The position numbers and the translations under genes were made by a program. A stretch of DNA of 64,000 bases from Balneola sp. EhC07 (GTDB lineage: Bacteria; Bacteroidota; Rhodothermia; Balneolales; Balneolaceae): the NCBI RefSeq assembly GCF_001650905.1, contig NZ_LXYG01000020.1, positions 62,001 to 126,000 on the forward strand, written 5' to 3'. Positions 31,236 to 53,703 of this stretch are shown here, piece after piece. Within the stretch, counting starts at the first letter, position 1; each line of letters starts with the position of its first letter. The notes beneath the pieces are model-generated. The model was not told the DNA's origin. It searched no databases and was given only the letters and a program-made list of their open reading frames with translations.

Positions 31236-31290
31236 ACCCTGTACTCTTATGTACTTTGATATAATATTACTCTTGCAAGGCCATTTTACA

Positions 31291-31330: not shown

Positions 31331-31336
31331 ATAAAA

Positions 31337-35150: not shown

Positions 35151-35567
35151 TTAATCTAACTCATCATTCTTATTACCACGTAATTTTTTATAAGCGTATG
35201 CTCCACCGGCAGCTGCAAGTAAGCCTAATCCTCCATCAATCGGAGCCTGGGCAGGATCTCCGGGAAGTCCGGGTTGAGCTAGTACCAATTCGGTAAAGAT
35301 TAACAAGTTTATCAATAGAACAGAACAACGCATTCCGAATTTTTTCACCAATTGAATCATGTCTTTTTTCTTTTCTTTTTGAGTTTTTTTTGAATGATGT
35401 ATCAGACATATCTGACAATACTTTATATAATCCGGATCACCAGGAATCGAATTAAGCTGAACTATTAAGCCTTTAATAGGATGTTCGGCACCTTCTTTGA
35501 CTTTGCAACTATTGCAACAATCATTTTCTATTGAGATGGACTTCAGTATACTTTCAAGTGTTTTCAT
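35151..35567 (-). CDS. Composite small protein: zinc-knuckle-like N-half plus signal-peptide/PID-CTERM-like C-half
   Basis: 138 residues in one open frame. Residues 1-69 resemble the 76-aa protein at 3440-3670: Cys18-x2-Cys21, EG...HPI, Cys51-x2-Cys54, basic tail. Residues 70-97 form a typical signal peptide (Met70 or Met79 to VLA). Residues 98-138 are a mature peptide with Pro109-Ile110-Asp111, a glycine/alanine-rich hydrophobic stretch and a basic end (KKLRG), the layout of PID-CTERM sorting signals. The C-half is identical over 35 residues to the 65-aa protein at 45657-45854. Started at Met70 (35360) the product would be 69 aa, close to that paralogue. So this may be one membrane-spanning protein with a cytoplasmic zinc-binding head, or two products from nested starts. 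It follows giant gene 2 after a 15-bp inverted repeat. Confidence 0.7.
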   Translation of the reverse strand: MKTLESILKSISIENDCCNSCKVKEGAEHPIKGLIVQLNSIPGDPDYIKYCQICLIHHSKKTQKEKKKDMIQLVKKFGMRCSVLLINLLIFTELVLAQPGLPGDPAQAPIDGGLGLLAAAGGAYAYKKLRGNKNDELD

Positions 35568-35589
35568 AATTGATATAGATGTAAGATTT

Positions 35590-35628
35590 AAGACCTTAGA
35601 TGTAGACTTCTTTTACATCTAAGGTCTT
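35590..35628. terminator. 15-bp perfect inverted repeat after giant gene 2
   Basis: AAGACCTTAGATGTA at 35590-35604 and its exact complement at 35614-35628, with a 9-nt loop. It lies 15 bp after the stop of giant gene 2 and 23 bp before the 138-aa gene. There is no clean T-tract on the minus strand, so it may be a leaky terminator, an mRNA processing or stability hairpin, or an attenuator. Confidence 0.55.
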
Positions 35629-35642
35629 GTGTCTAATGTCTT

Positions 35643-38600
35643 TTATTTAATAAGGGTTAATTTTTTTGTGATAACTGAGCTACCAGCCTGTAAACGATAT
35701 ATATACATGCCACTCGCTAAATTGGAAGCATCAAAATTTATAGTGTAACGACCGGCTGTTTTGTGTTCACCACGCATTAGTGTTGCAACTTTTCTGCCGA
35801 TAATATCAAATACTTCCAGAGTTACTTCCCCGTTTTCAGGAACTCCGTATCCAATAGTTGTAGTCGGGTTAAATGGATTCGGATAGTTTTGAGACAGCTC
35901 TACTATGACAGGAAGTTGTGCTTCCTCTTCATAGGAAACTGCTTCTCCGGCACTAATCTGAAGTATAAACCTACTCTCATTATCCGATTTCGATTTCATT
36001 ACTTTAGGCCCTCCTCTTTGAATAGGAATCAGGTTTCTAACATCAATAGATTTTGATCTTTTTTCATGATTTACAACAAATGTAATCTCTGCAACATCAT
36101 TAAGATCATATTGTTCATCTTCTTGTTGATCAAAAAGTATGAGACTCCAACTTTCGGGCAGTTTATTCAGTTCCCATGATAAAGTTATTTCAGTTTGTGT
36201 TTTAGAGGTATCAGAGATACTCAGATCCACATCAACAGGCAGCTCCCACATTCCGGAAAGGTGATCGGGCAAAGCATTAATATCCAATTGTGTGTTTTCC
36301 TCGTCAACTTCCAGAGGAAAAGAACTGAATAAGCTTAAATATTCACTGGAAAGAGGTTGAAGTTTATAGGCATCATATTGGTCTTTTTCAGGAACCGCAT
36401 CTTTATAAAACAAAACTACTCCTTGTGAACTCATATCATCACTTTTAGCTTTGAGTTTTATTGTAGATGCTTCTGAGACTTTCATCAAATTACCACCTGA
36501 ATTTTTGGTGGAATCATTAATTGAAAATTCCGGTGAAGTTGAATGTGCTTTTATCCAAAAACCTTGCCATGGGGCTATCATCCCATTTTCTAAAGTTCCT
36601 GTAATACCGTTCCAACTCAGATAAGAACCATTTCCGTTGTTAGCTGAATCGCTCCAAACATAATAGGTCGCATCTATATTCTTTTTATTCCAACCGCTCT
36701 GTGCTCCCCAATTAATGGAAGTTCCATATGGGTTTCCAACCAGATTCCAACCGTCGTTTGCCATAACACCTGAATCTGTAAATGATACTGAAGGTGAAGC
36801 CTGACCATTAAACTTACTTGCGCTGTTTATTAGTTTTTTGGGAAAACCTTCCGGGTTCCCATCATTGTCATCATCAGAATAAACAAAAGTTAAAAATCCT
36901 GTACCGGACGCTGGCACTTCATTGGCATTGGTAATTGGTTGAAAAGATCTGGCTGATTCGCTCCATGTATAAACGTTGGAATTTCCATGAGAAACATCCG
37001 CTCCTGTAAAGCCCTGTGTCCATAAAGAATCTAATAAAGTTCCAAATGACGCTCCTGAAACTGGAGAACTTAGCATTCTCCAGCCTTCAGCTCCGGTAAT
37101 TATAAGTTCGTTGTATTTTGTTTCCTGTAATTTTGGATATCCTGACCCTTCTTCGATATACCAGGTATCAGTAAAATCAAATCCTGAAAAAGAATTTCTT
37201 TGCTTCATTTGAGCAGTTGTTAAGCCTGTTCCGTCAGCAGAAGAGGATTGCCCGGTGGTTTCTGTATCCCAATATGAATTCGTTACCGCGCCTGAGTTTT
37301 TCTCGCCAATCAAGCCTCCGTTTCCAGATGGCGCGGATACACTTCCTGTTCCGTAACTATTTTCGATAGTTCCACTTATTAACCTCGCTACTAATGCAGA
37401 TGCACCATAGTTAGAACTTGTAGCAGAAGCTGTTGAATAAGAATTTGTGACCAACCCATTAGATCCATTATAGTTTTCATTAGCTCCAACCAATCCTCCG
37501 GTATGATTGTATCCGGTAACTGTCCCTGTTGAATAACTATTTCTAATCTCAGAGTAATTAATTCCTACCAGCGCTCCTGTGTATTCATCTCCGGTTATAT
37601 CTGCATTTTCAAGAGCAATATTTTTAAGAATAGCATCGTGAGTAGCTCCAAATAAGCCTATAAAGTTGGAACTGCTTCTGTCTATGAAAAGACTTGAAAT
37701 TTTGAAACCATTTCCATCATAAGTACCGGAAAACTCATTCCCGGACCCGTTAGTACCAATTGGATTCCAGCCTGAATTTTGGTTGAATGGGGCTACGTTC
37801 ATGTCAATATCTGCTACCTGAATAAAATGGGCATCCATGAAATAACGTACGCTGTCTAAATGAACGGCTGTAGCTACTTTGTAAGGATTGGATTCAATCC
37901 CAAAACCACCACCCAATAATTCTTTTAATTCCTCATAACCGGGATGAGGTGTTTGTTCATTATTTTTTAAGTATGGATAGGCATAATACTCCTGTATTCC
38001 CCACACACCGGAAAAATCCCAGCCATTAAATGATGATTGGTCTTTCATTTGTTTAGTTGTGAGTCCGCTCCCTCCATTCGAGCTCGATCTTGTACTGGTC
38101 TCTGTATTCCAGTAACTGTTATTAACTGGTGTACCTTGTCTATAACTGATAAACCCTAAAGCCGAACTACTTACACCGGTAACTTTTCCGCTGGAAAAGC
38201 TATTTGTGATACTTCCAGAATAAGTTCTTCCGGCAAACCCTGCTACATAATTATTGTTTGTAGTAACTGACCCCGTGGCATAGCTGTTGGAGATTGTAGT
38301 TCTGTTTCCGTACCCAATAAAACCGCCTGCATAAACCCCATTGTTTACTAATACTTCAGATTCAGAATAAGATTGGCTTATATTGGTAGAAAATCCAGTT
38401 CCAATGAGCCCCCCAACCTCACTTCTACCGGATATTGATCCCGTAGAATGGCTATTGGTTACATTTCCATAATTAGCACGCCCTATTAACCCTCCTCCTC
38501 GAAATCCAGTCAAAGTAATGTTTACATTACTGAACGAACTATCAATATCAGCTCTAAAACTATATCCTGACAGCCCGCCTGTATCGTAATTTCCAACTAC

Positions 38601-41600
38601 AGATCCCGAGACTTTAACATTGGTTATATCTGAGTCCGCTATTTGTCCTGCTAAAATACCTGTATAATCTCGTCCGGTAACATCCACACTATCAACTTTC
38701 ATATTTTTTAAAGTCGCATTAGAATTTATTCTGGCAAACAACCCAACTAAATTAGTGCCGGGGCGATTGATGAACAGGTTTAATATTTGAAATCCATTCC
38801 CATTATAACTTCCTTCGAAATAGTTTTCGATGGGCAGCCACCCTTCACCAGAATTAAATGGAGAGACATCTAAATCTATATCTGCAGTTTGTGTAAAATA
38901 TTTATCTCTTACATGACGCACACTGTCGAGTTGTGTAGCTGTGGCAATTTGAAAAGGTTTTGTTTCTGTTCCACACCCTCCATTAAAAAATTTAACGAAA
39001 CTACTTTGCCCTGAAGTGGGATGGTTAATTTGCTCATTTGTTCTCAAATAAGGGAAAGAGCTGTTTGCATCAATATTCCAAACTGTAGAAAAATCCCACT
39101 CAGAAAAAGATGCTTGTTGCATAAGCTGAGTAACTGAAAGTTCAGAACCACCTGCTGAACTTTCCTGACATATAAACTCATTGTTCCAATAACTGTTTGC
39201 AACTGTTCCTGCATTTTTCTCGCCAATTAAACCCCCGCTTCCGGATAGAACAAAAGCCTCGCCTGCCGCATAGCTATGCTCGATCGTTCCGCTTAGTTGG
39301 CGACCAACCAAGCCTCCTGCACCAAAATTAGAGCTGTATGCAGAAGCAGTAGAATAAGAATTAATAACTAGTGCAGTTGAGCCATCCCAGGTCTCTAACC
39401 CACCAACTAAACCACCTGTATGATTAACACCTTTCACAGAACCCGTTGAGTAACTATTTCTTACTTCAGAATAGTTTATACCAACCAGAGCTCCTACATA
39501 TTCTTCACCCGTTACATTTACATCTTCTACACCAATATTTTTTATCACAGCGTTTTTAGTTGCTCCGAAAACTCCATTATAATCAGTGGAAGGTCTATTT
39601 ATAAATAGATTTTGAACTTTGAACCCATCACCATCCAGTGAACCCGAAAATTCTTCAGCTGAACTATTGGTTCCAATAGGTTCCCAACCTTCTCCTGTGT
39701 TAAAAGGTGAAACATTCAGATCAATATTTGAGGTCAATTTGAAGTGAGCAGTAAGATGATATCTAACACTATCTAATTGTTGAGGCGTGCTAATAAGATA
39801 TGGATTCGCAATCGTACCCAACCCTCCTGCATAATTAATAATTTTAAACTGTTTGCCGGGAGGAGGATTTTGTTCTGTGCTAACCAGATATGGATAACTG
39901 GTAGAATCTCCGGTTACTATATTCCATACCGAACTGAAATCCCAACCGGCATCGGTGTATGTACTTTTTGTTTTAAGCTGTTGAAGCGTTTTGCTTACAC
40001 CGCCGCCCAAACTGCTTGTTTGCCCAGTAGCTGTAGTGTCCCAGAATACATCATTGGCAACAGTTCCTGATTGATACATTCCAACAAGTCCACCAACATT
40101 TGAAGGAGCTGAAACCGATCCGACTGCGTATGATTTGGCAATATCTCCTGATAGAAATCTACCAATAAGCCCACCGGCACTTGTAGATGTGGCCGTAACT
40201 GATGCAAGAGAATATGAATTACTAATTTCGCCTGCACTGGTGTAAGTTTCTAATAAGCCTGTAAGCCCACCGGCATGATTTTCAGCTGTTACTGAACCTG
40301 TACTATAGCTTTCAGAAAGATGTGTGTAATTTATTCCGGTTATGGCACCTACATAATCTTTCCCTGTAACATTTACATTTTCAAATCCTACTTTTTTGAT
40401 GTACCCGTATCTGGTGGTTCCAAATAATCCCACAAAATTTTCTGTAGGTCGGTTTATGTACAGATTTTTTATTTTTTTCCCATTTCCATCAAAACGCCCG
40501 TGAAATTCTTGTCCTGATGAGTTTGTGCCAATCGGCTTCCATCCTTTCCCTGAATTGAATGGATAAATATTTAAGTCAATATCATGAACCAGCTTGTATT
40601 CATATGTGTTGCTGTCATATATATTCCTAAGGTGGAATGTGTTTTTAATTAAATAGGGATCTCCGGAAGTTCCTGAACCACCACCATATTTCTTTGTTAT
40701 TTGATGCATTGGATATCCAAAGTTATATACATCTGTAACTTCCCAATTAGAGCTAAAATCCCATCCTGCTCCGGAAAAGGTAGATTGTGTTTGCATTTCC
40801 GCTGTCGTTTTCCCCGTTCCTTGTCCTGCACTTGTAGCCAACCCGCTACTCTCTGTATCCCAAAAGCTATTAGTAACGGTTCCGGAGTTTTGCTCCCCCA
40901 CTAAGCCACCTGCTCCACCATTGGGTGCACTTGCAACTCCGGTCGAAAAACTATTTAAAATTGTACCTCCTTGTAATCGTGCAACTAACCCGGAAGCACC
41001 ATAATTAGAAGAATTAGTTTTAGCATGGGAGTATGAATATTTCAGATTAGCGCCAATTCCACCCAACATAGTTCCAAGCAAACCACCGGTATGATTTCTA
41101 CCATTAAGCTCTCCTGTTGAGAAAATATACTCAACTGTACCGTTCAGATGCCCTGCAAGAGCACCAACATATTCATCCCCTGTAATATCTACATCAACCA
41201 AACCAAGGTTTTTTACACTAATTACATTACTGCCTCCACTGATATGACCAAATAAACCAACATAGTCAGTTCCCGCCCTGTTAATATAAAGCCCATAAAT
41301 AACGTGTCCATTTCCATCAAAACTAGCTCTGTACCAATTTGGTGAATCAGCGGTACCTATTGGTTCCCAACCCTGTCCATTATTCCAATTTTTAGTATCT
41401 CGGGCATCAATATCATTCATCAGTATAAAATGAACTCCCCAGGAATCATTATTTCTTACCTCGTTTAGTTCTGTAAGATTTGTTATCTGATAAGGATCTC
41501 CCGAAGAGCCATCACCACCGGCGAACTGGGCTGAAACTTCTTTCTGCATTAAGATCAGAATGAAGACCAGCATGATGTACCTGACAGCCTTACTTAACTT

Positions 41601-41651
41601 TTGTAGTAATTTCTCTTTTCCTTTTAACCGTAAAACGTATTCTTTTTTCAT
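35643..41651 (-). CDS. Giant 2: T9SS-secreted GLUG-repeat surface protein (2002 aa)
   Basis: Signal peptide with a long charged n-region, cleavage near residue 42 (EVSAQ). Five GLUG-rich blocks start near residues 45, 330, 610, 890 and 1250, with a regular period of about 280; block 4 is longer. Each block begins with a GG.G...NPY.I...L..VR leader, then a GW.PIG...FDGNG..I module and several GLUG motifs (GGLVG, NSYSTGSV), and ends in an SYWDT segment. Next come a C-terminal beta domain near 1560-1760 (GWRMLSSP, GWNLVGNPYG) and a linker. A T9SS type A domain follows from about 1915, with NPFNPTT and final KKLTLIK. It is probably exported by Sec and T9SS and attached to the cell surface as an adhesin. 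It is divergent from an AraC-type hybrid kinase, with a shared direct-repeat element upstream. Confidence 0.92.
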   Translation of the reverse strand: MKKEYVLRLKGKEKLLQKLSKAVRYIMLVFILILMQKEVSAQFAGGDGSSGDPYQITNLTELNEVRNNDSWGVHFILMNDIDARDTKNWNNGQGWEPIGTADSPNWYRASFDGNGHVIYGLYINRAGTDYVGLFGHISGGSNVISVKNLGLVDVDITGDEYVGALAGHLNGTVEYIFSTGELNGRNHTGGLLGTMLGGIGANLKYSYSHAKTNSSNYGASGLVARLQGGTILNSFSTGVASAPNGGAGGLVGEQNSGTVTNSFWDTESSGLATSAGQGTGKTTAEMQTQSTFSGAGWDFSSNWEVTDVYNFGYPMHQITKKYGGGSGTSGDPYLIKNTFHLRNIYDSNTYEYKLVHDIDLNIYPFNSGKGWKPIGTNSSGQEFHGRFDGNGKKIKNLYINRPTENFVGLFGTTRYGYIKKVGFENVNVTGKDYVGAITGINYTHLSESYSTGSVTAENHAGGLTGLLETYTSAGEISNSYSLASVTATSTSAGGLIGRFLSGDIAKSYAVGSVSAPSNVGGLVGMYQSGTVANDVFWDTTATGQTSSLGGGVSKTLQQLKTKSTYTDAGWDFSSVWNIVTGDSTSYPYLVSTEQNPPPGKQFKIINYAGGLGTIANPYLISTPQQLDSVRYHLTAHFKLTSNIDLNVSPFNTGEGWEPIGTNSSAEEFSGSLDGDGFKVQNLFINRPSTDYNGVFGATKNAVIKNIGVEDVNVTGEEYVGALVGINYSEVRNSYSTGSVKGVNHTGGLVGGLETWDGSTALVINSYSTASAYSSNFGAGGLVGRQLSGTIEHSYAAGEAFVLSGSGGLIGEKNAGTVANSYWNNEFICQESSAGGSELSVTQLMQQASFSEWDFSTVWNIDANSSFPYLRTNEQINHPTSGQSSFVKFFNGGCGTETKPFQIATATQLDSVRHVRDKYFTQTADIDLDVSPFNSGEGWLPIENYFEGSYNGNGFQILNLFINRPGTNLVGLFARINSNATLKNMKVDSVDVTGRDYTGILAGQIADSDITNVKVSGSVVGNYDTGGLSGYSFRADIDSSFSNVNITLTGFRGGGLIGRANYGNVTNSHSTGSISGRSEVGGLIGTGFSTNISQSYSESEVLVNNGVYAGGFIGYGNRTTISNSYATGSVTTNNNYVAGFAGRTYSGSITNSFSSGKVTGVSSSALGFISYRQGTPVNNSYWNTETSTRSSSNGGSGLTTKQMKDQSSFNGWDFSGVWGIQEYYAYPYLKNNEQTPHPGYEELKELLGGGFGIESNPYKVATAVHLDSVRYFMDAHFIQVADIDMNVAPFNQNSGWNPIGTNGSGNEFSGTYDGNGFKISSLFIDRSSSNFIGLFGATHDAILKNIALENADITGDEYTGALVGINYSEIRNSYSTGTVTGYNHTGGLVGANENYNGSNGLVTNSYSTASATSSNYGASALVARLISGTIENSYGTGSVSAPSGNGGLIGEKNSGAVTNSYWDTETTGQSSSADGTGLTTAQMKQRNSFSGFDFTDTWYIEEGSGYPKLQETKYNELIITGAEGWRMLSSPVSGASFGTLLDSLWTQGFTGADVSHGNSNVYTWSESARSFQPITNANEVPASGTGFLTFVYSDDDNDGNPEGFPKKLINSASKFNGQASPSVSFTDSGVMANDGWNLVGNPYGTSINWGAQSGWNKKNIDATYYVWSDSANNGNGSYLSWNGITGTLENGMIAPWQGFWIKAHSTSPEFSINDSTKNSGGNLMKVSEASTIKLKAKSDDMSSQGVVLFYKDAVPEKDQYDAYKLQPLSSEYLSLFSSFPLEVDEENTQLDINALPDHLSGMWELPVDVDLSISDTSKTQTEITLSWELNKLPESWSLILFDQQEDEQYDLNDVAEITFVVNHEKRSKSIDVRNLIPIQRGGPKVMKSKSDNESRFILQISAGEAVSYEEEAQLPVIVELSQNYPNPFNPTTTIGYGVPENGEVTLEVFDIIGRKVATLMRGEHKTAGRYTINFDASNLASGMYIYRLQAGSSVITKKLTLIK

Positions 41652-41697
41652 TTCAGCTTTATGAATTATTAAGAGTCTATTGACTCATTTTCCTCCA

Positions 41698-41705
41698 CAA
41701 AGCTA
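41698..41705 (-). promoter_or_regulatory. Possible -7 element of the giant 2 promoter
   Basis: TAGCTTTG on the minus strand fits the Bacteroidota TAnnTTTG consensus. A TTTG lies 16 nt further upstream, inside the direct-repeat element, slightly closer than usual. It is 46 bp before the start codon. Confidence 0.4.
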
Positions 41706-41720
41706 TATGCATCACCTAAA

Positions 41721-41754
41721 ACAAACGTGTCAAAAACCTGAACAATCGTGTCAA
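41721..41754. promoter_or_regulatory. Direct-repeat operator candidate, copy upstream of giant 2
   Basis: Two direct copies of CGTGTCAA with 21-bp spacing, in a 34-bp segment that matches 53704-53737 at 30 positions. It lies 70 bp upstream of giant 2 and 155 bp upstream of the divergent hybrid kinase. A 21-bp direct repeat is the geometry of AraC-family half-sites. Confidence 0.65.
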
Positions 41755-41908
41755 GTTTGTACTTTTAATACACCATAAAGGCTATTTTTATTTTTATACG
41801 GTTATATTATAGCTATCATGATTTAAGTTATTTTAGAATTTCAATGGACTTTTTCTCACAAAGCCTTATACTCTTTCCTAATTAAAAGGACAGATTTTTC
41901 ATCAAAGT

Positions 41909-44596
41909 ATGGGCGGCTTTTTATTGACTCCGGAATCCATTCCGATGCTTGCAAAATTACTGCTGGCAATTATTGTAACCGGATACATTCTTATTTTTTT
42001 TAAGAAGACCAACTCAGTAAAATGGTTTTCAAGATATTTAATCGGTTATACCCTTCTTGATATTTTAGTCTTTCTTGGAGAAGTTGCCGTATCGGATTGG
42101 GCTCTCCTGAGTCTACCATTACAATATATTGCCAGTATTGTCTTCACTTACTGTTATCTGCAATTTGCCTACCACTTCAAAGAGAATAATTTCGAAAAGG
42201 AACATCGCAGAGTTACTTTATTTGTAAACTATTTAACGGTTCCCGCAATTCTGTATACTATTTATATGATGTATGATATAGGGTTCGGCGACTACACCAT
42301 GGTACAGGTCTTGCTCCCTTACCCATTGTTTTTGATATGCTGGTCCGGAGCTATTTTCTACAGAAAGTATCGGGTGTCACAAAATGAACACAGTGAAAAT
42401 GAGCTGAATGCCTCGGCTTATAAAGCTTTCTTTATTATTACAATACTGGCCATTTTTATTTCAATTTTCCCTGCTATGAGAGCATTGGAGGTAATTGGAC
42501 ACGCTTTGTTTACCGTGACTTTTTTCATTCTGAATCTGACTGTTTTCTGCATGCTTACTGCTGCAGCGGTTAACTATTTAACAAGTCGTACTACAATGCT
42601 GATAAAGCTTGTGGGAATCTCTTTAGTATTATTTATCACCATAATTGGCTTACAAGGTTTTCTGATCATACCTGATTACGAATTCCAGACAGGGCAGGAT
42701 ATTTCTATTGAGAATCGACGAGAAGTTCATTCTCAGGTTCTGCCTTATGTCTGGTTTCTTTTGGGTTCATCCGGCGTTATTCTTTCTCTGTTTCCGATTT
42801 TCTTTAGCAGAACTGTATTACTTCCTTTAAGAAGGTTATTAAAAGGTGTTGATGAAGTGAATAAAGGAAATCTTAGTTATAGAATTGGAAATCAAGGGTA
42901 TGATGAATTGGGAGTAATGAGTGAACACTTCGATACTATGACCTCAAACTTGCAAATAGCCAATGTAGAACTTAAAGAATACACAGAAGGGCTTGAAGAA
43001 AAAGTACGAGAAAGGACTGAAAAACTGCATCAGCAAACTGAAGAACTGGAACGTCTTCACAAAATGCGCTCAAAACTATTTCAGGATATTTCTCATGAAT
43101 TAAGAACGCCTATTACACTAATTTCAGGGCCTATCCGCCAGCTGTTGAATTCCAAAAAAGAACTTGATGAGCATACTCATAAACAGCTACAACTTTCTTT
43201 TCGAAATTCAGAACGTTTAAAAAAACTGGTAGAACAAATTATAGAGTTGAACAGATTGGAATCTGAGCAACTGACTTTCCATTCTACAAAAATAAATATC
43301 TCCGGGCACCTGCAAATCCTTTGCGCTTCTTATGAAAGTTATATTGCAGAACAAGGCTTAAAACTCAATACCTCTATTCCGAAAGAAGCAGTTTATGCAG
43401 AGTTGGATGAAGATAAATTTGAAAAGATCATCAATAATCTTATTTCCAATGCTGTCAAGTTTACCTCAAAAGGTGGGATCATCAAAGTGAGTTTAGTTTC
43501 GGAATCAGAATTTTTCTCAATCCGTGTTCAGGACAACGGAATCGGAATTCCGGAAAGTGAAATACCACATATCTTCGACCGCTTCACAAGTGCATCTAAA
43601 ACTAATGTTGATTATAAAGAAGGTCTTGGGGTTGGTCTTGCCATTACTAAAGAATACACTGAACTACAAAACGGATCTATCAATGTCCAAAGTTCACCAG
43701 GAAATGGAAGTACGTTCATAGTTCGGTTTCCTACAGCTGATGCTCCCATCACAGAAAAAAACGCCGAAACTTTTGAAACGATCCCTAAAGGCATAACATC
43801 AGACACTGAAAATGAAAAACCAATAACTCCTGAGCAACCGAAAACAAGCTCCGGCACCATATTATTAGTTGAAGACAATCCGGATATGGCTGATTATATC
43901 GTTTCTGTACTGGAAGAAAATCACTATAAGGTTCAGTATGCAGCTAACGGGAAAAAAGGCCTTCAAAAACTTACGAATGTCAAACCTGATCTGATCATCA
44001 GCGACATTATGATGCCGGAGATGGACGGCATGACCTTTTTGAAAAAAGTCAGAGAAATGACTGACTTTACAGATACACCCACTATTTTCCTTTCTGCACT
44101 GTCCGGGATTGATAAACAATTGGAAGGATTACGTCTTGGGGTAAATGATTATCTGGTGAAGCCTTTTAATCCTGAAGAGCTTATTTGCCGGATTCAAAAT
44201 TTAATTGAGTTCAGAAAAGTTCGGGATAAATTTACAGTATCCGTTTCGCAAGATATAAACCCAGATCTGGATGACGAACTTATACAAAAACTTACTAAGC
44301 TAGTGGAATCCAAGTTAAGTAATACTCAGTTTAACATGGAAGAACTATCAGCTGAAGTTGCTATGAGCAGAAGTTCTATGTACAGAGAAATAAAAAAAAT
44401 CACAGGTCTTTCTGCCGGAGCATTCGTTAAAGAAATACGTTTACAGAAAGCACGTCAAAGATTGGAAAACAATTCTGTTAAAACATTGAACGAGATAGCC
44501 GGAGCTGTCGGGTTTTCTACTCCCAGTTATTTCACTAAACTTTATAAAAAGCGGTTTGGGAAACATCCTTCTGAATATTTAGACCAGACTAATTAA
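41909..44596 (+). CDS. Hybrid two-component regulator: multi-TM sensor, HAMP, HisKA, HATPase, REC, AraC HTH
   Basis: 895 residues. About seven transmembrane helices in residues 1-300 form the input, without a large periplasmic domain. Then HAMP near 305-355 and a coiled coil; HisKA with phospho-accepting His in SHELRTPI near 395; HATPase near 500-610 (NNLISNAVKF, DNGIGIP, GLGVGLAI); REC near 650-765 (LLVEDN, Asp in ISDIMMPEM, YLVKPF); AraC-type HTH near 800-893 (SRSSMYREIKKITG, VGFSTPSYFTKLYKK). One polypeptide thus senses a membrane or envelope signal and binds DNA. It is divergent from giant 2 with a shared 257-bp region containing the direct-repeat element, so it probably controls giant 2 and possibly itself. 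The amidase-like gene follows after 46 bp. Confidence 0.93.
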   Translation: MGGFLLTPESIPMLAKLLLAIIVTGYILIFFKKTNSVKWFSRYLIGYTLLDILVFLGEVAVSDWALLSLPLQYIASIVFTYCYLQFAYHFKENNFEKEHRRVTLFVNYLTVPAILYTIYMMYDIGFGDYTMVQVLLPYPLFLICWSGAIFYRKYRVSQNEHSENELNASAYKAFFIITILAIFISIFPAMRALEVIGHALFTVTFFILNLTVFCMLTAAAVNYLTSRTTMLIKLVGISLVLFITIIGLQGFLIIPDYEFQTGQDISIENRREVHSQVLPYVWFLLGSSGVILSLFPIFFSRTVLLPLRRLLKGVDEVNKGNLSYRIGNQGYDELGVMSEHFDTMTSNLQIANVELKEYTEGLEEKVRERTEKLHQQTEELERLHKMRSKLFQDISHELRTPITLISGPIRQLLNSKKELDEHTHKQLQLSFRNSERLKKLVEQIIELNRLESEQLTFHSTKINISGHLQILCASYESYIAEQGLKLNTSIPKEAVYAELDEDKFEKIINNLISNAVKFTSKGGIIKVSLVSESEFFSIRVQDNGIGIPESEIPHIFDRFTSASKTNVDYKEGLGVGLAITKEYTELQNGSINVQSSPGNGSTFIVRFPTADAPITEKNAETFETIPKGITSDTENEKPITPEQPKTSSGTILLVEDNPDMADYIVSVLEENHYKVQYAANGKKGLQKLTNVKPDLIISDIMMPEMDGMTFLKKVREMTDFTDTPTIFLSALSGIDKQLEGLRLGVNDYLVKPFNPEELICRIQNLIEFRKVRDKFTVSVSQDINPDLDDELIQKLTKLVESKLSNTQFNMEELSAEVAMSRSSMYREIKKITGLSAGAFVKEIRLQKARQRLENNSVKTLNEIAGAVGFSTPSYFTKLYKKRFGKHPSEYLDQTN

Positions 44597-44642
44597 AATA
44601 CCTTGTTAATCAACTTCTTTTAATCAGAAAAATATAAATAAC

Positions 44643-45587
44643 ATGAAAATCACACCTGATGAGCTCAAACCCGGAGACCTTTTGCTTTGTGAATTCAGCC
44701 ATCCCGGTTTTGACGGATACGCAGAAGCATTCATTTCTATTCTGAAATTCCGCAATGCTAAGTCAGAAGAAGAACAAAAGAAATTCATGACTGCCGCTTT
44801 CACTATTCTTCGGGGATTGATCATAACCTTTGATCAGGATATTTATACCCATGCTGCCTTCTGGGATGGGAAAGGAGTAGTGGAAGCTGGTGGAAATGGT
44901 GTTGGCAGAAATGCTATTGATCATTACAAAGGAACTGAAACGGATGTATATCGTTTTGTAGAAAATGGTAAACAAGTTCTTGGAACTCAGGAATACCCCG
45001 TTGAACCTTTACTTGCACTTGCCGATGAAATTGTGAATGAAAACCTTAATTATTCCTACAACACGGCTATTCTGATGATCTTTCTATGCATCACTCGTTG
45101 GGAAAGAGAAACTTGGATCAATGCTGTAATGAACTTTTTAAAGTCTCATCTCAAAGCTCTTGATCCGGACCTCATCGATTTTTTATTCAAAGCAAATCAT
45201 GACAAATTTATAGAACTATTTGAATGGATGGCCGATGAGATGATCCGTAGGATTGTTGCTTTCAGAAATGATAATGGATTGGTTTGCTCAGAAACCGTAA
45301 CAGCTATTTTTAATCAGGCAAAGCCTGAAGGGAAATATAAACTTGAAAAGCCTCTGAACTTAGCTACTATTCCTCATAAAAAAGAAGAAAGCATTCAACT
45401 CTCGCCTGAAGATTCTAAAAATGAATGGACTGAATTTTTTAATCTGTTGGATCGATCCGAGTTCCCATTAAAATCATCCTCACCTGAAAGTTCGGATTGG
45501 AGGAAGCATGCAGATATCATTTATACTCCTCATGATATTGCAAGGTCTGTTAATACCATGAAAGTTGGGAAGTTAAATCTTAAATAA
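44643..45587 (+). CDS. YiiX/YebB-like permuted NlpC/P60 (C92 family) protein
   Basis: 314 residues, no signal peptide. The N-terminal LKPGDLLLCEF motif, the His in THAAFWDGKGVVEAGG near residues 73-86 and the Cys in GLVCSETV near 217-222 follow the circularly permuted papain-like order (His before Cys) of YiiX-type amidases. A mostly helical insert separates the two motifs, making it longer than the usual 200 or so residues. The family is thought to cleave amide or ester bonds of lipids or peptides; real substrates are mostly unknown. It follows the hybrid kinase by 46 bp on the same strand and is probably in one operon with it. A role in processing envelope peptides or lipoproteins is a guess. 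Confidence 0.75.
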   Translation: MKITPDELKPGDLLLCEFSHPGFDGYAEAFISILKFRNAKSEEEQKKFMTAAFTILRGLIITFDQDIYTHAAFWDGKGVVEAGGNGVGRNAIDHYKGTETDVYRFVENGKQVLGTQEYPVEPLLALADEIVNENLNYSYNTAILMIFLCITRWERETWINAVMNFLKSHLKALDPDLIDFLFKANHDKFIELFEWMADEMIRRIVAFRNDNGLVCSETVTAIFNQAKPEGKYKLEKPLNLATIPHKKEESIQLSPEDSKNEWTEFFNLLDRSEFPLKSSSPESSDWRKHADIIYTPHDIARSVNTMKVGKLNLK

Positions 45588-45656
45588 AAACTTCGCTTTG
45601 CTAAACTGATGAAGATTTCGAGCATTCGTAGCGAAATGAATTACAGATGTGTTACA

Positions 45657-45854
45657 TCATCCCAAATCATCTTCTTTGTTTTTGCCACGGAGCTTTTTGT
45701 AAGCATACGCCCCACCTGCCGCAGCCAGTAACCCAAGTCCGCCATCTATTGGTGCTTGGGCAGGATCACCGGGAAGGCCTGGTTGGGCAAGGACAAAAGA
45801 TGTGGTAATGAGTAAAACTATAATTAAAGCGAAGATTATAAGCGTTGTTTTCAT
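45657..45854 (-). CDS. Minimal secreted PID-CTERM-like protein
   Basis: 65 residues. Signal peptide 1-23 (cleavage after VLA), then a 42-residue mature peptide beginning QPGLPGDP. It contains Pro35-Ile36-Asp37, a Gly/Ala/Leu hydrophobic segment and the basic end KKLRGK. That is the tripartite layout of PEP-CTERM-like sorting tags, so the protein is little more than the tag itself. Residues 22-56 are identical to residues 96-130 of the 138-aa protein, yet 22 of these 35 codons differ synonymously. It follows giant gene 3 by 84 bp, separated by a 14-bp inverted repeat, and converges with the amidase-like gene. The function is unknown; a membrane-held or released peptide linked to giant 3 is plausible. 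Confidence 0.78.
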   Translation of the reverse strand: MKTTLIIFALIIVLLITTSFVLAQPGLPGDPAQAPIDGGLGLLAAAGGAYAYKKLRGKNKEDDLG

Positions 45855-45882
45855 GTTGTTGGGCTTTTAGCTCTTAGCTGCC

Positions 45883-45922
45883 AGCTATTAGCTTTTGGGA
45901 CTGACCTCAAAAGCTAATAGCT
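45883..45922. terminator. 14-bp perfect inverted repeat after giant gene 3
   Basis: AGCTATTAGCTTTT at 45883-45896 and its exact complement at 45909-45922 with a 12-nt loop, 16 bp after the stop of giant gene 3 and 28 bp before the PID-CTERM-like gene. On the minus strand the 5' arm starts with A's and the 3' arm ends in no T-run, so read-through or an mRNA stability role is possible. Confidence 0.55.
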
Positions 45923-45938
45923 AAACGCTAAAAACTGA

Positions 45939-48900
45939 TTACTTGATTAGAGTTAATTTCTTGATCATGACTACATTCCCTGCTCGAAGGCGATAAATAT
46001 ACATCCCTGAAGCAAGGTTTGAAGCATTAAAGTTTAGCGTGTAGCGTCCGGCGGTTTTGTTTTCGCCGTTCAACAATGTGGCTACTTTCCTTCCCAGAAT
46101 ATCAAACACTTCCAGGGTTACTTTTCCGGTTTTCGGGACTCCATAAGCAATGGTTGTACTTGGATTAAACGGGTTTGGATAGTTTTGTTCAAGCTCAAAA
46201 GTTAGTGGCAAATCGGATTCGGGTTCGTTGGTTACCGTCTGGCTTTGCTTTATCAGAAGTTTAAACCTTGAAGTTTCACCCTTCTTTTTCCTGAGTATTT
46301 GAATTGGAGAAGCAGGTTGTTTTTGTGTGGATTTTACACTCTCTTTTGAATATTCCAAGAGTTCGAAATTAAGAGTGTCAGCACCAGTTATTTCGTAAGT
46401 GCTCTCATTCTTTTCATCAACAAGAATAATATGCCAATCTTCAGGGATACTTACTGTTTTCCAATCAAGCATATGGTCTCCTGATAAATTATTACCATAT
46501 ATATCCAAGTTTAGCTCAAGATCACTATCTCCGAAAGGAAGTGCCTGAATATCCATTGTTGGGTCATTATCTGAGCTTGTTCCAAGAGACAGGAATTCGT
46601 TTGTTAACGGCTGTAATTTAAAAGCATCCAGATTGTCTTTACCAACCTTAGCTTGTTCATCAAAAAATATTACCGATTCGGAAAAACTACCCCCTTTTGA
46701 TAATCTTAGTCGTATCTGCGGATTCGAAACCTTTTTTTCAAAAACCCCACCCGAACTTCTCACCGAATCAGATAAAGACAGAACGGGTGATTCTCCGTTA
46801 GCTTTTACCCAAACTGACTGCCATGGAGCAATTTTCCCGTCTTGTAAAGTTCCAGTAACCCCATTCCAACTTTTATAAGTACCATCTTTTTGACTCCAGA
46901 CATAAAAGGTTGCATCAAGGTTCGTACGGTTCCAACCATGTTGGGCATCCCAGTCAATCGATTTTCCATAGGGGTTCCCAATTAAATTCCAGCCATCGTT
47001 CGAGGAATTACCAGTATCAGTAAATGAAAGTACTTTTGAAATTTCTCCCCGATATTGAGCATTACTATTAGTTAAGAGCTTTGGAAAACCAACATTCCCG
47101 GAAGCATTTGGTCCGTTATCATCACTAAAAACATATACGGCAAAACCTGAACCCACGAAAACACTATCTGATATATTGGTTGGTAGTTCCCAGCTTCTTG
47201 TTGCTTCATTCCAAAATAACACATTCGGAGTTCCTGATGGAGCATTTGAACCCGTAAATCCCTGAGTCCATAGCGAACCTAAAACCGAAGAAAACGTGTG
47301 TTTACCGGATGGTGCAGCCATTAAACGCCAGCCTTCATCCCCGCTTAGAACTACTTTTTTGTGTCCAAACTCTCTCAGATAAGGATAACCTATCGAATCT
47401 GATTTTGCCCAATGGTTTTCCCAATCAAATCCTGAAAAATTTGAACTATTCCACATTTGAGCTGTCGTCATTCCCGTTCCGTCAGCAGAAGTCGTTTGGC
47501 CGGTTGTCTGGGTATCCCAATAACTGTTCGTTACCGTTCCGGAATTTTTTTCTCCTATAAGACCTCCGTTGCCTGATGGAGCAGATACACTACCTGTTGC
47601 AAAACTGTTTTGAATAGTTCCGCTTATCAACCTTCCAACTAAACCTGATGCTCCATAATTAGAGCTGCTCACAGAAGCTGTGGAATAGGAATTAGAAACT
47701 AATCCATTTGAGCCGTTATAGTTTTCAGTTGCGCCAACCAATCCGCCGGTATGATTATATCCCGAAACAGAACCGGTTGAATAACTATTAAGAACTTGAG
47801 AATAATTAAAACCAACCAATGCTCCGTTATATTGATCACCCGTAATATTCACATCTTCAAGAGATATGTTTTTTAGTACAGCATTATGAGTAGCACCAAA
47901 TAAACCATTAAAGTCTGAACTACCTCTATTTATAAACAGATTTTTGATTGTATAACCTTTTCCATCTAAAACTCCCTTGAATTCCGATCCACTAGAGTTA
48001 GTTCCAATCGGCTCCCAACCGCTAGCCGCATTATAAGGTTCAACGTCTAAATCAATATCTGAGGCAAGTTCATAATGACTGTTCATATTGAATCGAATAG
48101 CATGTAACTGTAAGGGAGTTTTTATCTTAAAAGGATTTGCTACGGTACCTTCCCCTTCGTAACCAATCAAATCTTCATATCCGGGAAGTTCATCGGGCTC
48201 ATTAAACCTTAAATATGGATAGCTTTCTTCATAGCCGGACTTAATAGCCCAAACAGAACTAAAATTCCACCCTCCGAAAGTGCTTTGTGTTTTCATTTCC
48301 TGGGTTGTTGCTTCAGTAGCATCATAACTATCATTTTTGCCTGAGGCTTCACCGTCCCAATAGTTACCTGTTGCAGTTCCACTTCCGGTTCGGTACCCAA
48401 CAAAACCTAATGTTCTGGAACCACTTCCGGTTACTTTTCCTGCTGAATAGGAATTAATAATTGTTCCGTTATTTCTTATCCCTACAAACCCGCCAATATG
48501 TGTGTTAGATTCACCATCTACAGAAGCCAGAGAGTAAGAATTGCTTATTGTTGATGATAGTAACTGTCCTACCATACCACCGGCATAACTTCCACCTCTA
48601 ATTGAGCCCGTTGTGTAACTTTCTGATACTGAGCCGCCATACATAAAACCTACCAATCCTCCTGTATTTCCCGCCCCGATAATAGATACCGAATCTAACC
48701 CAACTCGATGTATTGTACCTGATGAACTTCCGAATAATCCAATATTTGAAGTTCCGGGTCTGTTAATCGTTAACCCTTTTATAGAATATCCACTTCCATT
48801 GTAATTTCCTCCAAAATCTACAATTGGCTCCCAATTATCGAAAACAGACAAATCAATATCCGCACTTTGAACGAATGCACTATCTCTATTTAATCGCACC

Positions 48901-51900
48901 CGGTTTAATTCTTTTGCTGATGAAATCTGATAAGGATCGCCAGTTGATCCTGACCCATTTTCATATGTTTTTTCTTCTCCAGGGTTAGACACAGGATCTA
49001 CTTCACGAAGGTATGGATAACTAAGTTTTGGCCCACTCTGGAGTGTCCAGATTGAGCTGAAATTCCAACCTGAAAAAGTTGCCTGCGTCTTCATTTCTTC
49101 GGATGTCTTCCCTGTTCCAAGAGCCGAACCAGATTGTTCTGATGTCTCAATATCCCAATAAGAATCGGAAACTGATCCGGAAGAATTAATCCCGATTAGT
49201 CCTCCGATGTTTGAACCACTGCCTCTTACTTCTCCTGCTGAATAGGTTTCGTCGATCGTGCCACTTATCAATCTACCTACTAGCCCACCTGCATTAGAGC
49301 CGGCAGCCTCAACATCAACCAAGGCATACGACTCAGAAATATCTCCTGTTGAGCCGTTATAGTTTTCGAGAATTCCAACTAAACCACCTACATGATTACT
49401 TCCTTCAATATGCCCTGTTGCAAATGTGCTTTTGACGTCCGAGTAACTAATACCCACCAAAGCACCTACTATATCTTTTCCTTCGATGTCAACATCAACC
49501 AAACCTACGTTTTTCACTTCACCGTCAAATATTGCCCCGAACAAACCTACCACGTTTTCTGTTGAACGACGGATCCTTAAGTTTTCAATGATATATCCGT
49601 TTCCGTCAAAAACACCTCTGAATTCAGCACCGGAAGAATTTTCACCGATAGGATCCCATCCCTGAGGATAGTTGTATCCAAAATTTCCCACATCGATATC
49701 ATTTGTGAGTTTAAAATGACTGGTTAAAAAATTTCTTACTTCATTGAGATGTGTTGCGGTAGAAATTTGATACGGATTACCGGAAGTTCCATCACCGCCC
49801 CCAAATACAGGATCTTTCTGTAAATTCGGATATCCTGAATTAACTCCGGATGATATAGACCACCTCGAAGAAAAATCCCATCCTAAATTTGAAAATGTAG
49901 ATTCGGTTTTCATTTGAGATGTAGAAACTCCTACACCACCCTGACTCTGGGTTTGGCCACTTACATCTTCATCCCAAAGACTATTGTTTACTGAGTTAGT
50001 GCCCGAAGAATTAACTTCAACGTACCCAACCAAACCACCAGATTCTATGGATCCCTGAACATCTGTTGCAGCGTAACTTACAGATATGTCATTTAGTCCA
50101 CCTGCGGTAACAATTTGTGCACCAACCAAGCCTCCTGATCTTACCGATGTTTCTACTGTACCTTTTGTAAAACTATTTTGTATGTAATTTGCACCCGCTT
50201 CTCCGAATTGTCCTCCTACAAGTAAACCCACATAAGTATTTCCATCTACAGTTCCGGTTACATAACTATTAGATATAGTTGATGTTCTTGAGGACGCGTG
50301 CTGTTGACCTATAAGTCCACCTGTATAAACATTTCCGGTTACATCAATATTTGTAAGCCGAACGTTGGTAATTTGAGCAGAACTGGTTTTTCCGAATAAC
50401 CCGGTATAATCCGTTGATCTGTCTATAAACAAACCATCGATTGTATAATCATTTCCATCAAATCTACCTCTGAATGGTTCGGTTTGAGTTCCGATTGGTT
50501 CCCATCCACTGCCCGAGTTAAATGGTGAGACGTCCAAATCAACGTTATCTACCAATATAAAATTAGCCGACAGATAGTTCCTTACTGCTTTTAGTTGAGT
50601 AGCATTTGAAATTTGATACGGATCTTCAATAGTACCTGAACCGGGAAATACCGCTATTGGCGATTTTATCTTTACGGTTGGATATCCATTGTTTGCAGAA
50701 CCGGAAATTTCCCATTCATTAGTAAAATCCCAATTGTATGCTGTATAAGTTGATTGGCTTTTCATACTGGAAGAGGTTTCCCCAATTCCTCCATCACTTG
50801 ATGACCGACCACTGGTTTGTGTATCCCAAAAGCTTGTAAATGTAGAGTTCTGCCCGCTACCCAGCCGTTGCCCTACAAATCCTCCAACATTTGTATTACC
50901 ACTTACTGCACCGGTTGAATAGCTGTTATAAATTCTATTCGTACTTGATGAACTACTAGCGTTCATAGCTCCGATAAAACCTCCGGCACCGTATTTACCT
51001 ATAACCTGAACTCTTGCATAACTATTACGAATGGTATTGGTTCCTCCGGATGCTTGCATTCGTCCGATTAGCCCACCTCCATCAGAATAGGAACTGTTCA
51101 CAACTCCGGTGGCGTAACTGTTTTCAATGATACTTTCCTTGGAAGGGCCTGCATATTGGAATCCGATTAAAGCTCCAACAAAATCTTCTCCTGTTATATC
51201 AACATTAGTCAAACCTAGATTATAAATACTTGCGTTTTCGGCATTTCCGAAAAGCCCAACGTAAGTTTCTTCCGTGTCAATAAATAAACCATCGATAATG
51301 TAACCGTCTCCATAAAAAGTACCTGTAAATGGACTGCTTTGTGTACCTATAGGATCCCAACCTGAACCCGAGTTATAAGGAGCTACATCCAGGTTAATAT
51401 TCGCGGTAAGAATAAAGTGAAATGACGGATAGTTTCTTATTTCATTCAATTGTTCTGCTGTAGCAATTTGATAAGGATTAGCTTCTGTCCCTGCCCCTGC
51501 ATCAAAAACTCCATAAACAGGTTCTTCAGGTGCGGGCCCTATCAAACTACTTTCGTAGATATTACCTTGACCGAATTGATCTCCGACGGTAACTTCAAAA
51601 CTGATATATTTTCCGTTATCATCAAATTGATTTACTACATAAACTCTTCCTGAAACACCTGATATTGTTGTTTTCCCATTACCTTCTGCATCGTCAAATC
51701 GGTACCATTTAAACACTGTGCCTGTTTCCGAATCACCATCTGTATCGTAATAATCATATTCACCAACAAGAGAAGCTCCGGCTTGATGAATCCCATTAAT
51801 ATAAACATTGGTTGCAAATGGAGCAGTATTTGTGGTTAATCCGGGAACTAAACTTGGACTGGGGTCACGTAAATAAGGATATGATAAACTTCCATCCTCA

Positions 51901-53633
51901 TCTCTTTCTTTTATATCCCAATTACTTGAAAAATTCCATCCCGAGTAACTCTCTTTTTGTAACATTTCAAGTGTAGATTTTGAAGAACCTCCTCCACTGT
52001 TAGTAGATTGTCCTGTTTTTTCTCTGTCCCAATAGGAATTTGTAATATAATTTGTAGACGGGTTGTATTCGCCCACTAATCCTCCTGCGCCATTAGGAGC
52101 TGATACAGTTCCTGCTGCATAGCTTTCTTTAATATGTCCGTCATAAAAGCGTCCTGCAAGTCCACCTGCACTATAACTTGACGCTGAAACAGTAGCTACA
52201 GAATAAGATCTCTCCAAACCAATGCTACTTGCTTCTGTTTGCTCAATTCTTCCTACTAATCCACCGGCATGATTTATTGCGTTCACGGAACCAGTACTGT
52301 AACTATTGGTTACATCGTCATAAATAGCACCGGCAATAGTTCCCACATAGTTTCTTCCTGTTACGTTGGCATTTTCAATTGCAATTCGATTCAAGATTGC
52401 TCCTTCTTCAACGATTTCAAAAAGACCGACATTATCTTCTGATGATCGGTTGATAGTCAAATTTGAAATAATCCAACCGTTTCCATCATAAGAACCTTCG
52501 AAATTTTCAATTGGATTCCAGTTACTTACCGAAGACAAATCAATATGTTCTGTTTGGATGAAATAAGCAGTCAGATAATTTCGTGCTTCATTCAGCTGAT
52601 CTGCAGAACCTACATGAAATGGATCAGATGAAGTGCCTAACCCTCCATCAAATACAGGTGGTGGAAGCAACGTAGGATAAGAGCCGGAATTAATTGTCCA
52701 AACTACTCCAAAATTCCAACCTGCGTTTGTAAATGTGCTTTGATTTTTCATTTCCGAGGTTGTTTTCCCCGTACCTCCAGCACTGGAAGATTGCCCGCTG
52801 GTTTGCGTATCCCAAAAACTATTCGTTGTTGTACTTGCGTACGAGTAGCCAATTAGTCCACCTGTGTTTACACTTCCACTTACAGATCCTGTTGAATAAC
52901 TTCTGTTTACAGTACTTGTAATTGAAGCATTGCTAGACATGGTCCCAACCATACCACCAACTCTTCTGTAACCGTTTATTGTTCCTGATGAATACGAATC
53001 TGATATATGTGAAATATAGAGGTTCCCGGTAATTCCTCCGGAATGATCAGAACTACTTGTAACAGATACTGCAGAGGATATGTTAGTTAATGTAGCTTCC
53101 CATGATTGCCCCGTAACTCCTCCTGATGCACCAGATGATGCAGTTACTGATCCTGAAATACTTACAAAACTAATATTTGTTCCTCCGTTAAAACCAATTA
53201 GGCCACCTACATTTGCACTTCCAGTAACGTTTATATTAGTAAGATTGAGATTTGTAATACTGCTCCCTCTATCTGTTGCTCCAATCAAACCTATATAGTC
53301 GTATCCGGATCTGCTTATATGGAGATTACTTATGGTATGACCATTTCCATCTATAGAGCCATTAAATCTATATCCGGGGTTGAACCCACCTATGGGTTCC
53401 CAACCTGATCCGGAGTTATAAGGAGACACATTTAAATCTATATCTGCAGTAAGAATAAATGAACTGCTTAAATAATTTCTGATATTGTTTAAATCTGATG
53501 CAGTGGCAATTTGATAAGGATTACCTGAGCTACCATCCCCTCCCGAGAATTGAGCATTTACTATTTGGCTAAAGCCTACCATTATCAGAAATACAAACAA
53601 TTGTATCTTTAAAACTGCATTATATTTATCCAT
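45939..53633 (-). CDS. Giant 3: T9SS-secreted GLUG-repeat surface protein (about 2564 aa)
   Basis: The frame extends to a GTG at 53681. The ATG at 53631-53633 is preferred because the product then starts with a normal signal peptide (MDKYNAVLKIQLFVFLIMVG, cleavage near VNAQ). Seven GLUG-rich blocks follow. Two precede an Ig-like domain (residues about 600-700, FKWYRFDDAEG) of the kind found in giant 1, and five come after it, with a period near 280. A C-terminal beta domain (GWRLMAAP, GWNLIGNPYG) starts near 2100 and a T9SS type A domain near 2475, with NPFNPST and final KKLTLIK. The last GLUG block closely resembles the last block of giant 2 in protein but not in DNA. It lies 195 bp downstream of the AraC-type hybrid kinase gene on the same strand, and a direct-repeat element separates them. 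Confidence 0.92.
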   Translation of the reverse strand: MDKYNAVLKIQLFVFLIMVGFSQIVNAQFSGGDGSSGNPYQIATASDLNNIRNYLSSSFILTADIDLNVSPYNSGSGWEPIGGFNPGYRFNGSIDGNGHTISNLHISRSGYDYIGLIGATDRGSSITNLNLTNINVTGSANVGGLIGFNGGTNISFVSISGSVTASSGASGGVTGQSWEATLTNISSAVSVTSSSDHSGGITGNLYISHISDSYSSGTINGYRRVGGMVGTMSSNASITSTVNRSYSTGSVSGSVNTGGLIGYSYASTTTNSFWDTQTSGQSSSAGGTGKTTSEMKNQSTFTNAGWNFGVVWTINSGSYPTLLPPPVFDGGLGTSSDPFHVGSADQLNEARNYLTAYFIQTEHIDLSSVSNWNPIENFEGSYDGNGWIISNLTINRSSEDNVGLFEIVEEGAILNRIAIENANVTGRNYVGTIAGAIYDDVTNSYSTGSVNAINHAGGLVGRIEQTEASSIGLERSYSVATVSASSYSAGGLAGRFYDGHIKESYAAGTVSAPNGAGGLVGEYNPSTNYITNSYWDREKTGQSTNSGGGSSKSTLEMLQKESYSGWNFSSNWDIKERDEDGSLSYPYLRDPSPSLVPGLTTNTAPFATNVYINGIHQAGASLVGEYDYYDTDGDSETGTVFKWYRFDDAEGNGKTTISGVSGRVYVVNQFDDNGKYISFEVTVGDQFGQGNIYESSLIGPAPEEPVYGVFDAGAGTEANPYQIATAEQLNEIRNYPSFHFILTANINLDVAPYNSGSGWDPIGTQSSPFTGTFYGDGYIIDGLFIDTEETYVGLFGNAENASIYNLGLTNVDITGEDFVGALIGFQYAGPSKESIIENSYATGVVNSSYSDGGGLIGRMQASGGTNTIRNSYARVQVIGKYGAGGFIGAMNASSSSSTNRIYNSYSTGAVSGNTNVGGFVGQRLGSGQNSTFTSFWDTQTSGRSSSDGGIGETSSSMKSQSTYTAYNWDFTNEWEISGSANNGYPTVKIKSPIAVFPGSGTIEDPYQISNATQLKAVRNYLSANFILVDNVDLDVSPFNSGSGWEPIGTQTEPFRGRFDGNDYTIDGLFIDRSTDYTGLFGKTSSAQITNVRLTNIDVTGNVYTGGLIGQQHASSRTSTISNSYVTGTVDGNTYVGLLVGGQFGEAGANYIQNSFTKGTVETSVRSGGLVGAQIVTAGGLNDISVSYAATDVQGSIESGGLVGYVEVNSSGTNSVNNSLWDEDVSGQTQSQGGVGVSTSQMKTESTFSNLGWDFSSRWSISSGVNSGYPNLQKDPVFGGGDGTSGNPYQISTATHLNEVRNFLTSHFKLTNDIDVGNFGYNYPQGWDPIGENSSGAEFRGVFDGNGYIIENLRIRRSTENVVGLFGAIFDGEVKNVGLVDVDIEGKDIVGALVGISYSDVKSTFATGHIEGSNHVGGLVGILENYNGSTGDISESYALVDVEAAGSNAGGLVGRLISGTIDETYSAGEVRGSGSNIGGLIGINSSGSVSDSYWDIETSEQSGSALGTGKTSEEMKTQATFSGWNFSSIWTLQSGPKLSYPYLREVDPVSNPGEEKTYENGSGSTGDPYQISSAKELNRVRLNRDSAFVQSADIDLSVFDNWEPIVDFGGNYNGSGYSIKGLTINRPGTSNIGLFGSSSGTIHRVGLDSVSIIGAGNTGGLVGFMYGGSVSESYTTGSIRGGSYAGGMVGQLLSSTISNSYSLASVDGESNTHIGGFVGIRNNGTIINSYSAGKVTGSGSRTLGFVGYRTGSGTATGNYWDGEASGKNDSYDATEATTQEMKTQSTFGGWNFSSVWAIKSGYEESYPYLRFNEPDELPGYEDLIGYEGEGTVANPFKIKTPLQLHAIRFNMNSHYELASDIDLDVEPYNAASGWEPIGTNSSGSEFKGVLDGKGYTIKNLFINRGSSDFNGLFGATHNAVLKNISLEDVNITGDQYNGALVGFNYSQVLNSYSTGSVSGYNHTGGLVGATENYNGSNGLVSNSYSTASVSSSNYGASGLVGRLISGTIQNSFATGSVSAPSGNGGLIGEKNSGTVTNSYWDTQTTGQTTSADGTGMTTAQMWNSSNFSGFDWENHWAKSDSIGYPYLREFGHKKVVLSGDEGWRLMAAPSGKHTFSSVLGSLWTQGFTGSNAPSGTPNVLFWNEATRSWELPTNISDSVFVGSGFAVYVFSDDNGPNASGNVGFPKLLTNSNAQYRGEISKVLSFTDTGNSSNDGWNLIGNPYGKSIDWDAQHGWNRTNLDATFYVWSQKDGTYKSWNGVTGTLQDGKIAPWQSVWVKANGESPVLSLSDSVRSSGGVFEKKVSNPQIRLRLSKGGSFSESVIFFDEQAKVGKDNLDAFKLQPLTNEFLSLGTSSDNDPTMDIQALPFGDSDLELNLDIYGNNLSGDHMLDWKTVSIPEDWHIILVDEKNESTYEITGADTLNFELLEYSKESVKSTQKQPASPIQILRKKKGETSRFKLLIKQSQTVTNEPESDLPLTFELEQNYPNPFNPSTTIAYGVPKTGKVTLEVFDILGRKVATLLNGENKTAGRYTLNFNASNLASGMYIYRLRAGNVVMIKKLTLIK

Positions 53634-53703
53634 AGTTCTCATCATCAAAAGTTTAAATTTGTCCCACTGTTTTAATTGCACAAATTTCCCTTTTCGATAT
53701 TGA

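Follow-up and report, generated by a model that had tools for sequence, protein, structure and literature searches.

The window analysed here, a stretch of 64,000 nucleotides from Balneola sp. EhC07 (contig NZ_LXYG01000020.1), carries on its reverse strand two short genes whose products end in a common PID-CTERM tag (Table 1). In the 65-aa protein, a putative signal peptide is followed by a Pro-rich linker that starts with Q, by the PID motif with its membrane helix and KKLR tag, and by an acidic tail, while the 138-aa protein begins with a zinc-ribbon-like half, after which come a putative internal signal sequence, a Pro-rich linker as in the 65-aa protein and the PID-CTERM tag. The segment PIDGGLGLLAAAGGAYAYKKLR comprises the PID motif, the hydrophobic helix and the basic cluster and lies between the linker and a short charged tail. 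The initial annotation had described a PID-CTERM-type tag behind a signal peptide, which agrees with the scores of both proteins above the cut-off of NCBIfam model NF046080 and with direct inspection of the letters, where a hydrophobic N-terminus is followed by LAQ. A Q at position +1 after the predicted signal peptidase I site corresponds to the Q-rule of Bacteroidetes, with which both mini-proteins are in keeping (PMC5837995). For neither of them was a significant Pfam model, a T9SS sorting domain (TIGR04183/PF18962, profile search) or a match to the MSEP-CTERM family obtained, and they are predicted to be effectively without a passenger.

Table 1. Features of the window (coordinates refer to the 64,000-nt stretch).
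Feature	Position	Strand	Evidence or remark
PID-CTERM mini-protein, 65 aa	45657..45854	(-)	NF046080, 39.9 bits, cut-off 26
138-aa protein	35151..35567	(-)	NF046080, 39.6 bits, cut-off 26
Conserved core, 65-aa copy (37 identical residues)	45684..45794	(-)	
Conserved core, 138-aa copy	35175..35285	(-)	5' and 3' parts correspond to different sister-species copies
T9SS cargo, 2580 aa, with GLUG repeats and a type A sorting domain at the C-terminus	45939..53681	(-)	PF07581, PF18962, TIGR04183
T9SS cargo, 2002 aa, with GLUG repeats and a type A sorting domain	35643..41651	(-)	Profile matches
Gap between cargo and 65-aa gene, strong long hairpin	45855..45938	(-)	z -6.8
Gap between cargo and 138-aa gene, strong hairpin of unrelated sequence	35568..35642	(-)	z -6.4
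CxxC...CxxC zinc-ribbon-like region of 138-aa protein, residues 1-68	35364..35567	(-)	Alignment, family search
Stand-alone zinc-ribbon-like mini-protein, 76 aa	3440..3670	(-)	Family of the N-terminal half of the 138-aa protein
7511-aa protein, T9SS type A sorting domain	3887..26422	(-)	Followed by zinc-ribbon mini-protein, not by a PID gene

The starting point was the claim that the two proteins share 35 identical residues, from LAQPG to KKLR, in spite of numerous silent codon changes. Both open reading frames are present as annotated, and the recount reproduced 22 differing codons out of 35 (24 nucleotide positions), every change being silent. The true identical run amounts to 37 residues, with a V before and a G after the segment, and 24 of these 37 codons differ, again all silently; the crude chance that 24 out of 24 changes are silent is ~4e-14. 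Silent sites of the two cores are saturated (pS 0.76), and the signal peptides and tails of the two proteins are unlike each other. A chance resemblance or a recent duplicate was also considered as the source of the identity and is ruled out by the saturated silent sites together with the presence of six copies in the genome.

The further claim that the copies are old holds only in part: silent sites are saturated, but the core recombines among paralogues, and the 138-aa gene is a mosaic. Its signal-peptide region is identical at 75/75 positions to the copy at 374 kb of a sister species, and the DNA downstream of the gene is homologous (219/248) to the copy at 363 kb of that species; judging by these alignments, a crossover appears to lie inside the core. 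In a clean orthologous pair (window 45684-45794 and locus L174 of genome G003), the upstream region is identical at 300/300 and the downstream region at 45/45 positions, while the core matches at 99/105, that is, with six silent differences in 105 positions as compared to all flanks (Fisher p 0.003). A second pair, consisting of two copies within G003, showed no excess divergence in the core. Exchange between paralogues thus seems to contribute part of the silent differences, and 'old' would describe the codon variants and not this particular pair.

Six genes of the genome exceed the PID-CTERM cut-off, that is, the family here is larger than a pair. The proposed strong constraint on the amino-acid sequence is borne out family-wide, with a mean pN/pS of ~0.14 for the 22-codon tag across 61 tags of the bacterial family. 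All 61 bacterial-family sequences that contain a PIDGG core read PIDGGL, and hardly any variation is seen in the helix and in KKLR; the Pro-rich linker before the tag and the tail after KKLR vary freely among the same sequences. Free drift among homologues, which had been named as a refuting observation, therefore occurs, but outside the tag only, whereas the tag itself is frozen. Of the two readings offered earlier (a peptide with a function of its own or a close fit to a sorting enzyme), the enzyme fit is accordingly preferred, since only the tag is frozen, while the variation of linker and tail speaks against a function of the whole peptide. Beyond these sequences, tags without the Asp (PIGGG, PIGSG, PISGG, PLGGL) were seen at loci of five genomes, usually still behind T9SS cargo. 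In PID proteins of two other families (f11 and f15; loci L127-L134), the mature part is longer and shows, shortly behind the signal peptide, a recurrent LPxWAxP-like motif. The signal sequence of one PID-CTERM protein (L136, genome G123) ends in a lipobox-like LLFSC, which makes this protein a candidate lipoprotein that bears its sorting tag at the opposite end.

The initial annotation had also suggested looking for an exosortase gene elsewhere in the genome, and XrtX was found (NF046081, 204 bits, cut-off 170). Its Cys81/Arg122/His141 triad is intact, the three positions being kept in 19-20 of 20 aligned sequences. PID genes and XrtX co-occur closely: among genomes of the family that are >=95 % complete, 34 possess both, 1 PID only, 6 XrtX only, and 17 neither (p 8e-9), and in the phylum sample the respective counts are 58, 3, 40, and 293 (p 7e-39). 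Put differently, XrtX is found in 58/61 PID genomes of the phylum sample, and genomes of that sample with an XrtX above 140 bits have a PID gene in 48/52 cases. The exceptions among near-complete family genomes are the six with XrtX and no detected PID gene, and the reverse case, G067; a further genome, G028, retains only a stop-ridden XrtX fragment and has no PID gene. The NCBIfam models NF046080 and NF046081 bear consecutive accessions, which suggests that the curators had already paired PID_CTERM and XrtX. Separate from XrtX, the genome also encodes an XrtK/MSEP-CTERM pair.

The most informative fact at the locus, which the initial annotation missed, is the link to T9SS cargo genes. All six PID genes of this genome begin 43-93 nt behind the stop codon of a T9SS cargo gene on the same strand (naive chance ~5e-11, with T9SS sorting domains in 61 genes). 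In the window, the 65-aa gene follows the gene of the 2580-aa cargo after a gap of 85 nt, and the 138-aa gene follows that of the 2002-aa cargo after a gap of 76 nt. As only 6/61 T9SS genes have a PID partner, such a partner is no general need of T9SS proteins. The surroundings of 106 PID genes were inspected across the phylum (the two window copies included), and the upstream gene was readable in 105. In 77/105 cases it is a same-strand T9SS type A cargo; the distinct upstream C-termini match TIGR04183 in 52/55 cases within the bacterial family and in 23/32 outside it, two of the matching cargo genes each serving two PID genes. Raw binomial p-values overstate this pairing, as related genomes, loci within a family and paralogous cassettes are not independent, and the spread of the order over 10 families is the better argument. 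The architectures of the partner cargos are unrelated across the phylum (GLUG repeats, LTD/fn3, or no known domain). The remaining 28/105 PID genes are not located behind T9SS cargo; for the most part, these are flavobacterial PID genes (the majority of which belong here) and members beside or after metK or fumC. In two f11 genomes (L131, L133), the gene directly upstream of PID is porV, a core T9SS gene (outer-membrane shuttle). An XrtX or XrtY gene adjoins the PID gene or lies two genes away at six loci elsewhere, including two (L137 and L146) at which cargo, PID, and exosortase genes are consecutive; in this genome, xrtX is not adjacent to any PID gene. PorU, the T9SS sortase, is encoded in the genome as well, and T9SS attachment can thus run in parallel.

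In Balneola, the cargo-PID gaps (L014, L015, and L016 included) form strong hairpins of unrelated sequences, with z-scores from -3 to -7.5. A strong hairpin occurred in 9/10 of the gaps folded first, and the hairpin was considered as a universal part of the cassette. This was rejected, as z falls below -3 in only 39 % of 75 cargo-PID gaps (as compared to 21 % at the ends of other genes of this genome), and the enriched hairpin is treated as a local feature. Matches to terminator or promoter signals in the gaps were no commoner than in shuffled sequences.

The zinc-ribbon-like segment of the 138-aa protein, with four invariant Cys in the alignment, precedes the PID signal sequence in frame in several other proteins and stands alone elsewhere; its fusions to PID recur in other genera. 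In the window, the stand-alone 76-aa form is encoded 217 nt past the T9SS giant of 7511 aa, and, from this arrangement, the zinc-ribbon-like mini-proteins may represent another type of 3' satellite that accompanies T9SS cargo genes. The giant cargo genes are interspersed with and flanked by response regulators and large sensor kinases (window 26406-34982).

The genes that flank XrtX in Balneola and in several related genera encode a nucleotide-sugar dehydrogenase, an oxidoreductase, an acetyltransferase, and an aminotransferase. The last three match the PDB entries 3q2i/3q2k (named 'dehydrogenase/oxidoreductase' in the database), 3mqg ('lipopolysaccharides biosynthesis acetyltransferase'), and 3nu7 (WbpE), of which we take 3q2i/3q2k to be WlbA and 3mqg to be WlbB. 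The neighbours of XrtX are hence WlbA/WbpB-, WlbB/WbpD-, and WbpE-like genes. This linkage is limited to some genera, and because the dehydrogenase scores best as a UDP-glucose dehydrogenase, the link to the sugar is suggestive only. In Porphyromonas and Tannerella, the Wbp/Vim pathway makes the sugar that joins T9SS cargo, and similar sugars have been speculated by the same authors to serve CTERM systems (PMC7468200).

Compared with known systems, the two proteins correspond in their C-terminal PID, helix, and basic cluster to PID-CTERM (NF046080), the tag itself showing no difference. With the PEP-CTERM/exosortase system (EpsH family) they share the order of motif, helix, and basic tail, the use of one exosortase per genome for several tags, and the link to polysaccharide-type genes. 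PEP-CTERM proteins usually carry a large passenger. In the present case, by contrast, only a Pro-rich linker of ~10-16 residues would make up the mature portion, and the large protein, equipped with a T9SS signal, is the product of the neighbouring gene. The related exosortase XrtF (TIGR04128) of Flavobacterium johnsoniae likewise has a small membrane partner, the gene of which adjoins xrtF; xrtF, this partner gene, and T9SS genes were recovered together in a screen for surface colonisation, for which this system is required along with the T9SS genes (PMC10936215). The exosortase of the window genome reaches 93.7 bits against TIGR04128 (cut-off 90), but scores best as XrtX. The anchoring of T9SS type A proteins via PorU to A-LPS (Porphyromonas, Tannerella) is paralleled here by type A domains in the partner cargos, by the presence of PorU, and by the location of XrtX next to genes that resemble those of linking-sugar synthesis; the mini-proteins differ in having no T9SS domain and would take the exosortase route. 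MSEP-CTERM/XrtK, represented in this genome by one membrane protein of 939 aa and its dedicated exosortase encoded alongside, is unrelated to the mini-proteins. In the literature searched, no paper used the name PID-CTERM, and exosortases and T9SS were brought together only in the above speculation (PMC7468200) and colonisation screen (PMC10936215); the pairing of apparently passenger-less PID-CTERM members with T9SS cargo genes found no earlier description there.

Taken together, the two proteins are probably PID-CTERM mini-substrates of XrtX, each encoded 3' of the large T9SS surface protein with which it is paired. Observed are family membership, the six copies, the gene order across the phylum, the co-occurrence with XrtX, the intact triad, and a constraint confined to the tag. 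Given the tight same-strand order, cargo and mini-protein would be expressed jointly. Signal peptidase I is then expected, from the sequence, to cut before the Q; the remaining Pro-rich linker, about 10-16 residues long, would stay anchored to the inner membrane through the PID/helix/KKLR tag. Co-occurrence and gene neighbours suggest that XrtX could cleave at the PID and move the short peptide to an acceptor in the envelope, plausibly a glycolipid with a sugar of the 2,3-diamino-uronic-acid type, which might be placed near the T9SS pathway. As the weakest step, the resulting conjugate might aid or decorate the surface display of the partner cargo. A more far-reaching version, in which XrtX puts a cargo-specific Pro-rich peptide on a T9SS-type amino-uronic-acid glycolipid and this peptide is required to anchor or assemble the cargo encoded upstream, is in our opinion doubtful.

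The mini-proteins could instead escape processing by XrtX and act whole, as single-span inner-membrane adaptors that help the co-translated giant cargo through Sec or T9SS. Their very short, passenger-less form, a helix with KKLR that could be a plain membrane anchor, and the tight pairing with cargo genes would all fit; yet the invariance of PIDGGL, which lies where the helix meets the periplasm, exceeds the needs of an anchor, and neither the near one-to-one co-occurrence with XrtX nor the XrtX neighbours would be expected, which makes such adaptors unlikely. We regard it as quite improbable that the order is a by-product of duplicating cargo-PID cassettes, in which the tag is itself a small envelope component in its own right and its position behind the cargo is functionless. 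Cassettes have clearly been duplicated and recombined within a genus, and PID genes behind metK or fumC are in line with this idea, but it does not account for an order that is seen repeatedly, in 10 families and with cargos of unrelated architectures, and that also appears with PorV and in three-gene sets with an exosortase.

Two other alternatives concern the sequences themselves. The identity with its silent changes might mainly reflect old codon variants recombined among paralogues instead of selection on the pair, for which the mosaic cores, the crossover in the 138-aa gene, and the ortholog pair with a core more diverged than its flanks may be cited. Recombination, however, shifts existing variants and leaves the absence of amino-acid changes unexplained, and the family-wide pN/pS lies far outside the range of such exchange; as the main cause, it is thus very unlikely. 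That both reading frames are untranslated chance ORFs would agree with the observation that neither start is immediately preceded by an obvious purine-rich ribosome site, but hardly deserves credence in view of purifying selection, homologues throughout the phylum, and a curated family.

For the PID-CTERM mini-proteins as probable XrtX substrates, the phylum-wide order of cargo and PID genes suggests cooperation between two systems of surface attachment that have been regarded as separate. The order of cargo, mini-tag, and sometimes exosortase bears on the role of XrtX and on a second, peptide-based step in T9SS display, and the breadth of the pairing bears on the function of exosortases in Bacteroidota.
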